Under the pieces are notes generated by a model. The model was not told the DNA's origin and did no database searches. It saw only the letters and a program-made list of their open reading frames with translations. This document shows positions 18,108 through 35,947 of a stretch of DNA of 64,000 bases, in pieces. A program made the position numbers and the translations under genes. Where the stretch lies: contig CALQTN020000002.1 of assembly GCA_943333505.2 (NCBI GenBank), positions 62,001 to 126,000 on the forward strand. Direction: 5' to 3'. Numbering within the stretch: position 1 is the first letter of the stretch; every line of letters starts with the position of its first letter. Source of the DNA: Asaia bogorensis (lineage in GTDB: Bacteria; Pseudomonadota; Alphaproteobacteria; Acetobacterales; Acetobacteraceae).

Positions 18108-19280
18108 TTACTCGCGCTCCATGATGAGTGTGGCTGAGCCGTGGCGGGTGCCGAGCATGCCGCCTGTGCCGTGGGCAAGGGCGATGTCGCAGTTCGGAAC
18201 CTGGACTTTCGGATGGGCTTCGCCGCGCAGCTGGCGCACCGCTTCGATCACCTTGGTGATGCCGCCGCGATTGGCCGGATGGTTGTTGCAGAGGCCGCCG
18301 CCATCGGTGTTGAACGGCAGCTTGCCGACGCCCGAAATCAGATTGCCGTCGGAGACGAACTTGCCGCCCTGACCGCGGGCGCAGAACCCGAGATCTTCCA
18401 ACTGCATCAGCACGGTGATCGTGAAGCTGTCATAGATCGAGGCGTATTTGATGTCGGTCGGTTTGACGCCCGATTCGGCCCATGCCGCTGCGCCCGAGCG
18501 CACCGCGCCGGAATAGGTCAGATCGACCATGCCGCCGAGCTGGCCTTTGGGCGACTCGCCCGCGCCGATCAACTTCACCAGCGGCCGTTTCAGGCTTTTG
18601 GCGATTTCTGGCGAGGTCACGATCAACGCGCCGCCGCCATCGGAAATCACGCAGCAATCGAGGCGATGCAGCGGGGTTGCCACCATCGGCGAGTTCACCA
18701 CGTCTTCGACCGTCACCACGTCACGCAGCATGGCGTGTTCGTTGTGCTGGGCGTGATGCGATGCGGCGACCTTGATCCAGGCGAGTTGTTCGCTGGTGGT
18801 GCCGTATTCGTACATGTGGCGGGCGGCGACCATGGCGTAGCCGTTGCCGGTCACGGCCGCGTATTGCTGCTCGAACTGGGTGTCGGGGACCAGCGGGTTG
18901 CCGGCGCGCGGCGCGGTGCCGGTGGCCTGGCCTTCGCTGCGCGGACGACCGGCGAGGGTGATGAGCACAACGCTGGCGCGGCCCAGTGCGATCGCCTGGG
19001 CGGCATGGGCGACATGCAGGAGGTAGGACGACCCACCGACATCGGTCGAGTCCATGAAGCGGATCTTGGTCAGGTTCATGTAGTCGATCATGTTGATCGG
19101 ACCCATGCCTGGCGCGTCGCCGGCGCAGATGTAGCCGTCGATGTCGTCCTTGGTCAGACCGGCATCGAGCAGCGCGCCTTTGGCGCATTCGGCGTGCAAT
19201 TGCGCGACGGATTTATCCGGCGCCTTGCGCGTCGGGTGCTCGTAGGCCCCGACAATATAGGCTTTCCCTTTGATGCTCAT
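18108..19280 (-). CDS. thiolase-fold (SCP-x/Ltp2-like) protein
   Basis: A 390-residue thiolase superfamily protein. N-terminus KGKAYIVGAYEHPTR, central DSTDVGGSSYLLHVAHAAQA at the place where true thiolases carry the nucleophilic cysteine, NHPANRGGITKVIEA near residue 320, and ALAHGTGGMLGTRH at the end. Both catalytic cysteines of acetyl-CoA acetyltransferases appear to be missing. Together with the DUF35 partner this points to the Ltp2-like retro-aldolase/lipid-transfer group rather than a classical thiolase. It is the first gene of the minus-strand run and its promoter should lie in 19281-19415, shared with the divergent deacetylase. Confidence 0.85.
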   Translation of the reverse strand: MSIKGKAYIVGAYEHPTRKAPDKSVAQLHAECAKGALLDAGLTKDDIDGYICAGDAPGMGPINMIDYMNLTKIRFMDSTDVGGSSYLLHVAHAAQAIALGRASVVLITLAGRPRSEGQATGTAPRAGNPLVPDTQFEQQYAAVTGNGYAMVAARHMYEYGTTSEQLAWIKVAASHHAQHNEHAMLRDVVTVEDVVNSPMVATPLHRLDCCVISDGGGALIVTSPEIAKSLKRPLVKLIGAGESPKGQLGGMVDLTYSGAVRSGAAAWAESGVKPTDIKYASIYDSFTITVLMQLEDLGFCARGQGGKFVSDGNLISGVGKLPFNTDGGGLCNNHPANRGGITKVIEAVRQLRGEAHPKVQVPNCDIALAHGTGGMLGTRHGSATLIMERE

Positions 19281-20285: not shown

Positions 20286-20432
20286 CTGCGTTTGAAAACA
20301 AAGAAGAAAAAACCCTCACTATTTTGTTGCCGTTGGCGTGGGACCACGGTCCGTGGGTTCGCCAACGGCAACACATCATCAAAAAGTTTTTTTGGTTCTT
20401 TTTGTTCACAAAAAGAACTGCTTAACTTCCCT
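20286..20432. repeat. composite palindromic element, family A
   Basis: A central 13-bp perfect stem (20326-20338 GTTGCCGTTGGCG with 20360-20372) lies between AACAAAGAAGAAAAAACC on the left and a right-hand hairpin GTTCTTTTTGTTCACAAAAAGAAC. It fills most of the space between the deacetylase and the next solute-binding protein and probably stops transcription from the former. Confidence 0.8.
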
Positions 20433-22514: not shown

Positions 22515-22622
22515 GGGGCGACGAGATGGTGCGTGCGGCCCTGGACTGCGACGGCTTCGCTTCGAAGCGACAAAAAGTTAGTTTAACTTGACATTTCTGA
22601 TCGAGTTAGTTAATTTCACGAC

Positions 22623-23129
22623 ATGAAGCAATTTTCCCTCGTCCTCATTGATCTGCGCGCCGCGATTGCGGTTGTGGCGGCGCGTGAGCGGGGGCTTTCG
22701 GCGTTGTTGTTGATTGTCTGGGGGCGGGTTTCCCGGGTGGCGGCGCGGATTGAGCGGTTGATGGCGCTGTGGCGGGCTGGGATTTTGCCGGTGGCGCGGG
22801 CGCCTCGGGTTGGGCGGATTGCGGTGGTCAGGGTGCGGGTTCGGACCCGGATTCCGTCTGGGCGCGGGTGGTTGGCAATTCGGGCTTGGGAGGTTCGGGC
22901 GTTCGGGTCTCAGCTTGCGCATTTGATGGCGACTGATGCGGAGTTTGCGCGGTTTCTGGCCGAGGTTCCTGCTGCGGCGCGGATGCTGCGGCCGATTTGC
23001 CGGATGGTGGCGGTGGATGCGTTGCCGGCGGTGTTGCGTAAGGTTCGGGCGCCGGTGGTTGCTGGCGGCGTGGTGGTGAGTCCGGTGGGGGTGGTGCCGG
23101 AGGTGGTTTCGCAATTTTTGGGTGGTTAG
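22623..23129 (+). CDS. orphan conserved protein, cassette copy 1
   Basis: A 168-residue protein I cannot assign to a known family. It is clearly related to the protein at 34426-34929: both share a start of the form M-x-x-F-x-L-x-L-x-DLRAA, then WGR and R-ER/FERL-ALWRAG, then a central W-L-x-x segment, VxxFGSQLAH, and RFLAEVP-A--L-RP--RM. The N-terminal third (residues 5-50) is helical and partly hydrophobic (LSALLLIVWGRVSRVAARI), so it may associate with membranes. Basic residues are rich. The upstream leader is A/T-rich (AGTTAATTTC just before the ATG) unlike its surroundings, and the 3' flank is shared with copy 2. Confidence 0.6.
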   Translation: MKQFSLVLIDLRAAIAVVAARERGLSALLLIVWGRVSRVAARIERLMALWRAGILPVARAPRVGRIAVVRVRVRTRIPSGRGWLAIRAWEVRAFGSQLAHLMATDAEFARFLAEVPAAARMLRPICRMVAVDALPAVLRKVRAPVVAGGVVVSPVGVVPEVVSQFLGG

Positions 23130-23153
23130 GCGGTGGGGTGTTTCTGCGGATTA

Positions 23154-23345
23154 ATTGTTGCTATATCGTAATTAAAATGAATAGTTTTGTGTCGTGGTGG
23201 AGATGGATTGCTTGGCAAGGGCTCGCAACGACGAGGTGGGCGGCAGCGGGCGGGGCGGGGGCGGGGGTACGGTGCCTGCCACCCCGCCAAGTCGGGACGT
23301 TTTTTTGCTTCTTTTTGTTTACAAAAAGAAGACGCTTGCCTTCCT
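23154..23345. repeat. 3' flank of the orphan cassette plus family A hairpin
   Basis: After the orphan gene come TATCGTAATT (23164-23173), the tag AGATGGATTGCTTGGCAAGG ending CGACGAGGTG (23201-23238), and a hairpin CTTCTTTTTGTTTACAAAAAGAAG with a preceding T run. The first two blocks recur in the same order behind copy 2 on the minus strand (34391-34308). The tag resembles the TTGCGAAGCAATCC type repeats widespread in bacterial genomes. Confidence 0.7.
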
Positions 23346-34307: not shown

Positions 34308-34391
34308 CACCTCATTGCGAACCCTTGCGAAGCAATCCATCTTGGCCCAACACATTGAAATGCCATCTGAATTAAATAATAAATTACGATA
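34308..34391. repeat. 3' flank of orphan cassette copy 2
   Basis: Read on the minus strand this contains TATCGTAATT (34391-34382) and AGATGGATTGCTTCGCAAGG followed by GTTCGCAATGAGGTG (34342-34308), the same blocks in the same order as behind copy 1 (23164-23238). Confidence 0.75.
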
Positions 34392-34425
34392 ACGTAACAA
34401 ATAGATCGCAAATCGACCGCTACCC

Positions 34426-34929
34426 CTAAACCCACCTCAGCCGACCATCCCACCCCATCACCAACGCAGCCGGCGCAATCGTCGCCCCTGACACAGGCGC
34501 CCCCCACACCGGTCTCACCTTGCGCGGCTTCGTCGCATCGATCCCAACCCCAAGCATCCGCAACAACGGTCGCACCAGCCGCCCAGCCTGCGGCACCTCA
34601 GCGAGAAACCGCTGACACTCCTCGCCCGACAGAAAATGCGCCAACTGCGAGCCAAACACCGCCACCTCCGGCACATAATCAACCAACCACGCCGGCCCCT
34701 GTGGCAATTTCGGCTGGTCGCTTTTCGTGTCGTCCCGCCCAGCCCGCGATACCCGCGCCTTTGGCAATTTCCCCGCCCGCCACAGCGCCACCAACCGCTC
34801 AAACCGCTGCGCCATCCGTGCCAAACGCCCCCACACCACCAGCACAAGTGCCGCCAGCGCCCGGTCACGCCCAGCCCGCGCCGCTAGGGCGGCCCGCAGG
34901 TCAGTGAGGATGAGAGCGAATGTTTGCAT
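34426..34929 (-). CDS. orphan conserved protein, cassette copy 2
   Basis: A 167-residue protein of the same unrecognised family as 22623-23129. ATG 34929 (MQTFALILTDLRAALAARAG) was chosen over the frame's first ATG because it lines up with the other copy. Shared features: LAALVLVVWGRLARMAQRF, FERLVALWRAGKLP, the VAVFGSQLAHFLSGEE segment and CQRFLAEVPQAGRLVRPLLR. The C-terminal 35 residues differ between copies. The upstream leader is very A/T-rich and holds a perfect 12-bp inverted repeat (34967-34993). It is flanked by a DUF2971-like gene and HigBA, typical accessory genes. Confidence 0.6.
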   Translation of the reverse strand: MQTFALILTDLRAALAARAGRDRALAALVLVVWGRLARMAQRFERLVALWRAGKLPKARVSRAGRDDTKSDQPKLPQGPAWLVDYVPEVAVFGSQLAHFLSGEECQRFLAEVPQAGRLVRPLLRMLGVGIDATKPRKVRPVWGAPVSGATIAPAALVMGWDGRLRWV

Positions 34930-34966
34930 GAAAGATAATATAATTAACTTTACGCGCAAATCAAGG

Positions 34967-34993
34967 ATAATTTTCAGGATGCCTGAAAATTAT
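34967..34993. promoter_or_regulatory. 12-bp perfect inverted repeat upstream of orphan copy 2
   Basis: ATAATTTTCAGG (34967-34978) and CCTGAAAATTAT (34982-34993) are perfect arms around three bases. It lies about 40 bases upstream of the gene start and could be an operator or an RNA hairpin in the leader. No equivalent was found at copy 1. Confidence 0.5.
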
Positions 34994-35128: not shown

Positions 35129-35947
35129 TTAGAGCGTCACGGGCGTGATACGGAGGTTTCCCATCTCACGTTGTATCGTAGCGAGATGACTGGCGTCGAC
35201 GAACTCTGGCGGACAACATAGTTCCGTAATGGTCCCGGTGGAGAATGCCTCCCGGAAATCAAAGGCCATTTTCAGCGCGGGTGGAAAACCCATCGCCGCG
35301 CCATTTTCGAGCACGAATTGACCGATGCCGAGCGCCGATAATGCAACCCGCAACTCTCGCTCGTTCTCGAAGCGCGCCTTATCCTTTAAGAAAGTGAATT
35401 GTATTGGGTTTGCCATATGAAGCGCGTGCGTCTGCCTGTCCACATACTGAACGATGCCATAGTTAATCGAGAATATCTGCCGAAAGGTGTTGGCCCCCTG
35501 GACAAGTAGTCCGGGATTTTCGAGCGTCGCTTGTAGCGTCGCATTTAAGCGCGCCCGCAGCTTGTCGAAGTCGAACACAAGGCACACGGCGTCTCGGTCG
35601 GGGGCGTAGTTCTCCCAAAGGTAGGAGTTGTGCTCCTGTGAAAAGCAGCAGGCATAGGTGCGGGCCCGCGCGGTGTCGTAGTATCGCTCCAACGTGAACT
35701 GTGGGTCTTTTTCGAGCGACATAGCTGCCCCCGTAACCCTGTCTAAAGGCAACTGCTCTCCGTCAGTTTTGTCGTCGCCATAGGCATCCACTCGCTGAAA
35801 ATGCAGATAGTTCCGTTGCAGCATGTCGATGAGGTGGCGCACCCGCACGATTTTGAACAAAAGCGCACCGGTCGCCGGCTGCTGCAACAAGAACTTGTGA
35901 GGCTCAACAAACGCTAGTGGCAACGCCGTCGTTTCCGTTCTATCCAC
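35129..35947 (-). CDS. DUF2971-like protein
   Basis: A 272-residue protein with the layout of DUF2971: an N-terminal LLFKIVRVRHLIDML, a YACCFSQEHNSYLWENYAPDRDAVCLVFDF-like centre (CFS followed by W--Y and VCLVFD), and FLKDKARFENERELRV near residue 210. Function is unknown; such genes are scattered among accessory and defence regions. Base composition looks lower in GC than neighbours, which supports transfer. It lies 51 bp downstream of higA in the same orientation, so it may be co-transcribed with the toxin-antitoxin pair. Confidence 0.65.
   Translation of the reverse strand: MDRTETTALPLAFVEPHKFLLQQPATGALLFKIVRVRHLIDMLQRNYLHFQRVDAYGDDKTDGEQLPLDRVTGAAMSLEKDPQFTLERYYDTARARTYACCFSQEHNSYLWENYAPDRDAVCLVFDFDKLRARLNATLQATLENPGLLVQGANTFRQIFSINYGIVQYVDRQTHALHMANPIQFTFLKDKARFENERELRVALSALGIGQFVLENGAAMGFPPALKMAFDFREAFSTGTITELCCPPEFVDASHLATIQREMGNLRITPVTL

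Follow-up and report, generated by a model that had tools for sequence, protein, structure and literature searches.

Short palindromes dispersed over a chromosome are familiar from several bacterial systems. REP/RAYT systems and IS200/IS605-type elements carry them near gene 3' ends, and the parS, Noc, and SlmA sites are short palindromes scattered by the tens around the chromosome. Small SOS-regulated proteins are likewise familiar; in Caulobacter, SidA and DidA are encoded by single-copy genes under a GTTCN7GTTC LexA box. The Caulobacter LexA box consensus is given as GTTCN7GTTC in one report (PMC12700426), and another places the integron integrase gene intI under LexA (SOS) control (PMC3108266). 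The gene family described here raises the question of whether we are looking at an unrecognized SOS-linked mobile unit or at an unrecognized family of DNA-damage proteins.

Two of its members lie in the window, by which we mean the whole stretch of 64,000 nucleotides analyzed (Asaia bogorensis assembly GCA_943333505.2, contig CALQTN020000002.1, positions 62,001 to 126,000). A preliminary description of this DNA had reported two look-alike proteins of no recognized function, and it placed them correctly: copy 1 (P0001) is a basic protein of 168 aa encoded on the plus strand at 22623-23129, and copy 2 (P0002) is a protein of 167 aa encoded on the minus strand at 34426-34929. The likeness is real (78 of 162 residues identical, 48%, in BLASTP; E = 2e-32 for the pair), and the blocks that had been picked out, DLRAA, WGR, ERL..ALWRAG, FGSQLAH, and RFLAEVP, are all present in the alignment of the pair, as is the divergence of the C termini. 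A family of two copies was nevertheless an understatement, because the source genome holds 47 loci and two remnants; it also did not anticipate that the family has two subfamilies and that the DNA flanking the ORF is conserved on either side.

Searches of this genome (G000; 4.52 Mb in 151 contigs) by tblastn returned 48 matches with P0001 and 48 with P0002, corresponding to 47 loci, one of which was matched in two pieces; of the remnants, contig C127 carries a fragment and contig C31 a 3' end. Subfamily A comprises 29 loci, including both window copies and four that are truncated or frame-broken, and subfamily B comprises 18, of which the 15 members in a joint alignment are 28 to 36% identical to P0002. 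It is unusual for a bacterial chromosome of 4.5 Mb to hold some 50 copies of an unnamed gene that are divergent and under selection. A C-terminal tail, WPxxGLPxxxKGxWF, is common to L008, L011, and L025 of subfamily A and to L041 and L042 of subfamily B, a hint that A and B units have swapped 3' ends.

A B query detected the family in each of the five genomes searched from the genus (47, 46, 26, 61, and 42 matches). A profile of 40 members from the source genome found matches in 33 of 150 Acetobacteraceae genomes, the source genome included, and nine of these carriers score at least 22 family members each. A second profile, run on 385 genomes from the class with at most 8 candidates scored per genome, so that distant members might escape, found no carrier except the window's own genome. 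A contig-scale profile search confirmed 197 stretches; the 80 of these that were retained all come under the titles Acetobacteraceae, Asaia, Rhodospirillales, or Proteobacteria MAGs. As far as searched, the family appears to be confined to Acetobacteraceae. Six pattern matches on viral contigs were not confirmed, and a phage or plasmid origin was set aside on finding no phage match for P0002 and no plasmid match for P0002 or the L175 protein. The papers listed in literature searches, mostly from outside the subscription journals, hold no apparent description of the family. In a tree of 138 proteins, which takes in copies of 130 to 300 aa only, the sampled copies of G018 (10), G091 (10), G076 (3), and G092 (3) each form a single group, as do the A and the B members from the window's genus; judged by these groupings, the family has expanded separately in each genus. 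Sampling outside the source genome covered 3 to 10 copies per genome and, in G152, 36 of the 61 matches.

What recurs is a single-gene unit specific to this family, with defined ends, a presence that varies among related species, expansion within genera, LexA boxes in several lineages, and a protein under selection; this conclusion we regard as firm. The unit, of about 0.6 kb, consists of a promoter ending just ahead of the start codon, a single ORF, and a 3' dyad, GTTACGATATCGTAAT, about 25 nt past the stop. Conservation across copies begins about 45 nt upstream of the ATG with an A/T-rich run, followed by TTGACA in A or a TTGCAA-like box in B; it extends some 23 nt into the 3' motif and is close to zero beyond. 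No partner gene for a toxin-antitoxin module was found, as conservation halts at the unit ends and the ORF is not accompanied by a second gene.

Copy 1, of subfamily A, occupies 22578-23177 on the plus strand by cross-copy conservation. Its -35 box, TTGACA (22588-22593), is followed after 17 nt by the -10 box, TAATTT (22611-22616), which lies 6 nt ahead of the ATG, and its 3' site, CGGATTAATTGTTGCTATATCGTAATTAAAA, is at 23147-23177 with the dyad core at 23158-23171. Copy 2, also of subfamily A, occupies 34378-34974 on the minus strand, as delimited by cross-copy conservation and by the same-site orthologue in G152. It has a -35-like box, TTGATT (34959-34964), and, 16 nt further and 7 nt ahead of the ATG, a -10-like box, TATATT (34937-34942); its 3' site, CGATCTATTTGTTACGTTATCGTAATTTATT, is at 34378-34408 with the dyad core at 34384-34397. 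In the window copies the promoter is thus sigma70-type promoter-like, with the -10 box 6 to 7 nt ahead of the start codon, and by this geometry the copy 1 transcript would be leaderless.

Two further repeats occur around the units. A 24-bp inverted repeat, (C/G)TTCTTTTTGTKMACAAAAAGAA(C/G), is found at window positions 20395, 23308, 34207, 45622, and 58032, both with and without an adjoining family unit, and is possibly a terminator-like intergenic repeat. Repeats of the form GATGGATTGCTT(C/G)GCAA lie at 23202 (plus) and 34325 (minus), both immediately past the 3' boundary of a unit, and a similar sequence trails various further copies.

The 3' site is tied closely to the gene. A 20-nt motif, TTGTTACGATATCGTAATTA, scores at least 13 of 20 at 45 of the 47 loci of the source genome, and it starts 17 to 29 nt past the stop in 44 of these 45 and exactly 25 nt past it in 23; the two loci that fail the scoring are L034 and L028, the latter a frame-broken locus with an exact motif farther downstream. 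All nine exact occurrences of TTACGATATCGTAA in the source genome, and all 16 with one mismatch, lie at family copies or remnants (that on C31 being the 3' remnant); at two mismatches some sites are there by chance, the reversed-pattern control giving 4. The arms of the motif pair no more than shuffled ones in sets of 45, 89 (the 45 included), and 30 sequences, which indicates that the feature being kept is a DNA sequence and not a fold. An RNA hairpin or Rfam element was considered and rejected, there being no covariation and no Rfam match in window positions 19000 to 40000. Related 3' motifs recur in the sampled copies of G152 (34 of 36), G089 (10 of 10), G018 (9 of 10), G103 (7 of 7), and G119 (6 of 7). 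The motif is weaker outside the genus, in G020 (5 of 10), G091 (3 of 10), G092 (0 of 3), and G076 (0 of 3), a count in which one G020 and one G092 copy end at a contig boundary. In G091 the motif takes GTTTCGTAGTCGAAAC-like forms (e.g., at L115), which we take to recall the parS half-sites of ParB with a different spacing.

Codon evidence argues that the ORF is a true gene. Among the 25 closest pairs in the source genome, dN/dS is 0.26 to 0.59 in 23 and 0.70 and 0.91 in the other two; pS exceeds pN in 671 of all 903 pairs, a weak signal that reflects saturation; and in subfamilies A and B alike the third codon position shows the lowest conservation. Of twelve pairs between G000 and G152, eleven have matching flanks and the other (L018/L242) matches over a short stretch of flank; their dN/dS values are 0.22 to 0.48 (pooled, 0.35) at a dS of 0.54, and one neighboring host gene gives a dS of 0.57 and a dN/dS of 0.05. 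Orthologous copies are under purifying selection, and the pooled value indicates that copies still evolve as proteins after insertion, with a constraint weaker than that on a metabolic enzyme. The preliminary description had proposed that many copies per genome and a dN/dS well below 1 would support a real multicopy family, and both were found. Of course, a conserved DNA or RNA repeat in GC-rich sequence could carry an open frame as a mere by-product, and a long reverse-strand open frame over copy 1 is what such a repeat might show. Against this stand the dN/dS values below 1 with position 3 least conserved, the good to fair confidence of the fold models in A and B, and the lack of any RNA family match in window positions 19000 to 40000. 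The codon evidence practically refutes a spurious ORF or DNA-only repeat, and we give that reading next to no credence.

The family proteins are strongly basic (pI 10.6 to 12 in 43 members), and the profile libraries searched give them no clear name. The window proteins find nothing in NCBIfam or PHROGs, and their single Pfam match (GNA1162-like, E = 0.09) is under its cutoff. Among 40 members, matches were weak and scattered: Pfam gave DUF6182 in two (best E = 2.4e-4) and AcnX in one (E = 0.03), and PADLOC gave GajB in one (E = 0.028); a sequence search of the PDB returned one chance-level match (E = 0.58). The AlphaFold2 model of P0002 (pLDDT 86.9, pTM 0.69) has helices at residues 2-21, 23-51, 81-85, 87-100, 103-111, and 113-126 and a C-terminal hairpin, and that of a B member (pLDDT 78.1, pTM 0.67) repeats the order of the helices and lacks the hairpin. 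The family is predicted to fold as a small helical bundle with a very basic character. Foldseek gave the P0002 model 33 matches in the PDB, none with an E value of 0.001 or lower, and none among viral models reaching 0.001; VIA returned assorted helical bundles, the best with a Z score of 7.9, under the informative level of the tool. None of these fold matches (Foldseek against the PDB and viral models, VIA) lends support to DNA binding. In alignment A4, built from the 68 full-length relatives less L169 and L171, the invariant columns are R42, W81, R117, R120, P121, and M125, and the columns conserved at 90% or more contain no D, E, H, Y, or S, which would speak against a classical recombinase or nuclease.

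Its charge, its type of fold, and the strict association between gene and site lead us to propose that the protein binds DNA, and its own dyad first. Two other readings compete with this one. The very basic protein and the dispersed palindromic sites would also suit a host DNA-damage checkpoint, division inhibitor, or nucleoid-binding family that expanded because variants were useful, with the dyads as its chromosomal binding sites. Such a host-serving family is a serious rival, even if we think it rather less than probable. The conserved columns of A4, free of D, E, H, Y, and S, and the discrete ends would fit a selfish unit moved in trans by a transposase, the protein being toxin, immunity, or regulatory cargo and the dyad a recombination end or terminator untouched by it. 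The near-exact dyad accompanies this ORF only and no other cargo, however, and the dN/dS of 0.35 persists at fixed sites; we hold this selfish unit to be unlikely.

The genes next to the window copies are those named in the preliminary description, a HEPN remnant, DUF2971, and HigBA-type genes: HEPN (PF05168, E = 2.5e-5) on a 5'-broken frame beside a window copy, DUF2971 beside copy 2 (35129-35947; E = 5.5e-4, slightly short of the profile cutoff), and an HTH protein with a HigB toxin (PF05015, E = 3.7e-11). These accessory genes look incidental, since no match is listed for the DUF2971 gene at the corresponding site in G152 and other copies adjoin other genes, the neighbors of those copies being codon-usage calls and not gene identities.

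Whether a given gap holds a unit differs between genomes. The one clean empty site is that of L046, filled in G000 and G152 and empty in G151, where convergent stop codons lie 12 nt apart; the stretch missing there is about 1 kb and includes the intergenic repeats adjoining the unit, for which reason a target duplication is unreadable at this site. Neither a target-site duplication nor a recombinase was identified for the family unit. The copy 1 site, behind purA, holds no copy in G151 or G152 and a 5'-cut copy in G089, and two G103 genes with a copy behind them have none in G004; the far flank is unconserved in these comparisons, and the purA and G004 sites were therefore rejected as clean empty sites. 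The copy 2 site, behind kdsA, is taken up by an A orthologue in G152 (77% DNA identity) and by a B copy in G089; in G151 a remnant lies there. In G103, five near-identical copies have the unit in common and right flanks that by eye are all different, and upstream of it L129, one of the five, has nothing clear in common, again by eye, with the other four. Movement is not fast, and about ten copies of the source genome align with G152 through gene and flank, the G152 stretches having been chosen because they bear a copy.

Some gaps alternate between subfamilies. At the gap represented by L009 and L260, compared over the left flank only, one species has an A unit where the other has a B unit, and the gap of copy 2 (34378-34974) and L228 likewise holds an A or a B unit by species; this alternation suggests preferred sites. 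Elsewhere, the genes bordering two copies on separate contigs of the source genome are direct neighbors in G152 (L024, L033, L317), and the G152 gene pair matching the L024 and L033 borders has no copy between its genes; the difference would be a rearrangement near two units.

The downstream gene is convergent at 33 of 47 loci (p = 0.008), and upstream genes show no orientation bias (20 versus 22); both counts rest on genes called by a crude codon model, which calls only 5 of the 47 family copies and also penalizes short ORFs. The position of the unit next to gene 3' ends, with 33 of 47 downstream genes convergent, speaks for the selfish reading, and the transposase it might call for is where it meets difficulty, as no IS200/IS605-type Y1 transposase (PF01797) was found in G000, G103, G018, G020, or G092. 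One each is present in G089, G152, and G091. Mobilization by IS200/605 was rejected on its absence from five of the eight carrier genomes.

The same comparisons bear on the host family. In that reading, copies would have been relocated by ordinary recombination between intergenic repeats, and the purifying selection at fixed sites and the many sites common to congeners are as expected. It accounts less readily for the sharp unit ends combined with presence and absence between congeners, for expansion genus by genus with a patchy presence (33 of 150 genomes), and for a codon usage unlike that of host genes (5 of 47 copies called by the crude model, with short ORFs penalized). The preliminary description had suggested a selfish or mobile-linked small gene of this bacterial group. 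The link to mobility and to the group is borne out by presence and absence at related sites, expansion per genus, and restriction to Acetobacteraceae as searched; the word selfish is not borne out, since fixed copies stay under purifying selection.

A LexA box (GTTC-N7-GTTC or GAAC-N7-GAAC, between -110 and +25 of the start) was found at 29 of 124 copies and in 2 of 745 flank control windows, tallies in which related copies are non-independent counts. The scan skipped 10 loci (L049-L058) that duplicate other sampled regions, and L005 and L027, which have no start, were excluded from promoter and box counts. Boxes are frequent in G091 (9 of 10) and G092 (3 of 3), occur in G018 (4 of 10), G119 (4 of 7), B copies of G000 (5 of 18), and among loci sampled singly from other genomes (4 of 19), and are missing from the 27 scanned A copies of G000, both window copies among these, and from the 30 scanned copies of G020, G076, G089, and G103 together. 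In G152, 6 of 36 copies have a box, all of them B. SOS control is not a family-wide trait: by its boxes, only part of the family would belong to a LexA regulon, and for the two window copies, which have no box, such control is unsupported.

In several lineages, part of the copies have a canonical box lying over the start site. The boxes stand mainly in two registers, at -15 in G091, G092, and G018 and at -9 in G119 and the B copies of G000, which suggests independent acquisition. The lexA promoter of the source genome carries GAACTTAAGTAGAAC. Among B copies of G000 and G152 with Asn as the second codon, GAAC at -9 pairs with AAC in 11 of 11 copies, and AAC is used in 2 of 17 copies without an upstream GAAC (p = 4e-6). 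L043 and L256 keep the half-sites around an altered spacer (AAATCAT versus AAAACAT), a retention that also counts in favor of a host DNA-damage family. In place of a LexA box, the promoters of L127 to L131 in G103 have a dyad, AACTAAC-N5/6-GTTAGTT, over the -10 region that is perhaps another operator.

The reading we prefer, at slightly less than an even chance, is a mobile gene unit without a recognizable recombinase, with a DNA-binding product, that is damage-inducible in several lineages. In such a unit, transcripts would be leaderless, and the protein would be non-catalytic and DNA-binding, with a dimer recognizing the unit's own 3' dyad. Copies with a LexA box would produce the protein following DNA damage, and recombination supplied by the host or otherwise in trans, and not an enzyme of the unit's own, would copy it to new sites. 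The protein may still be useful to the cell, given that fixed copies stay under selection. A bolder version, in which an autonomous mobile gene relies on one 3' dyad and on a DNA-binding protein induced by damage to have host repair or replication copy it to gene ends, seems to us improbable; if true, an autonomous one-ORF mobile gene without known recombinase chemistry would be a new class. The discrete ends, the near-leaderless geometry, the LexA boxes in two registers, and the family-exclusive DNA site make the question of mobile unit or DNA-damage family testable at the bench.

Measured against the described systems, the family resembles each in part. With SidA and DidA it shares a small protein under a GTTCN7GTTC box, and it differs in being multicopy; no profile or fold match ties either protein to the family. 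The dispersed short palindromes, with the dimer binding proposed for the dyad, recall parS, Noc, and SlmA sites, yet every near-exact family site comes with a gene copy or remnant of its own, spacing and sequence differ, and no protein relationship was found. Dispersed palindromes near gene 3' ends are shared with REP/RAYT systems and IS200/IS605-type elements. Unlike with these, searches for a Y1 transposase found none in the source genome and none in four of seven further genomes, alignment A4 has no conserved His and hence no HUH motif, and the conserved dyad stands at one end only, in contrast to palindrome-ended elements.

Integron gene cassettes, finally, are like the family unit in combining one gene with a short recombination-like site, in having many copies per genome, and in their connection to LexA control. 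Cassettes are arrayed and promoterless, whereas the family units are single, spread as 47 loci over many contigs, each with promoter-like sequence. The attC site has a conserved secondary structure, and the family 3' site, which shows no covariation, does not qualify as one. It also accompanies one gene family only, unlike the sites of integron cassettes. The LexA boxes of the integron system are on intI; those of the family are on the unit's own gene.
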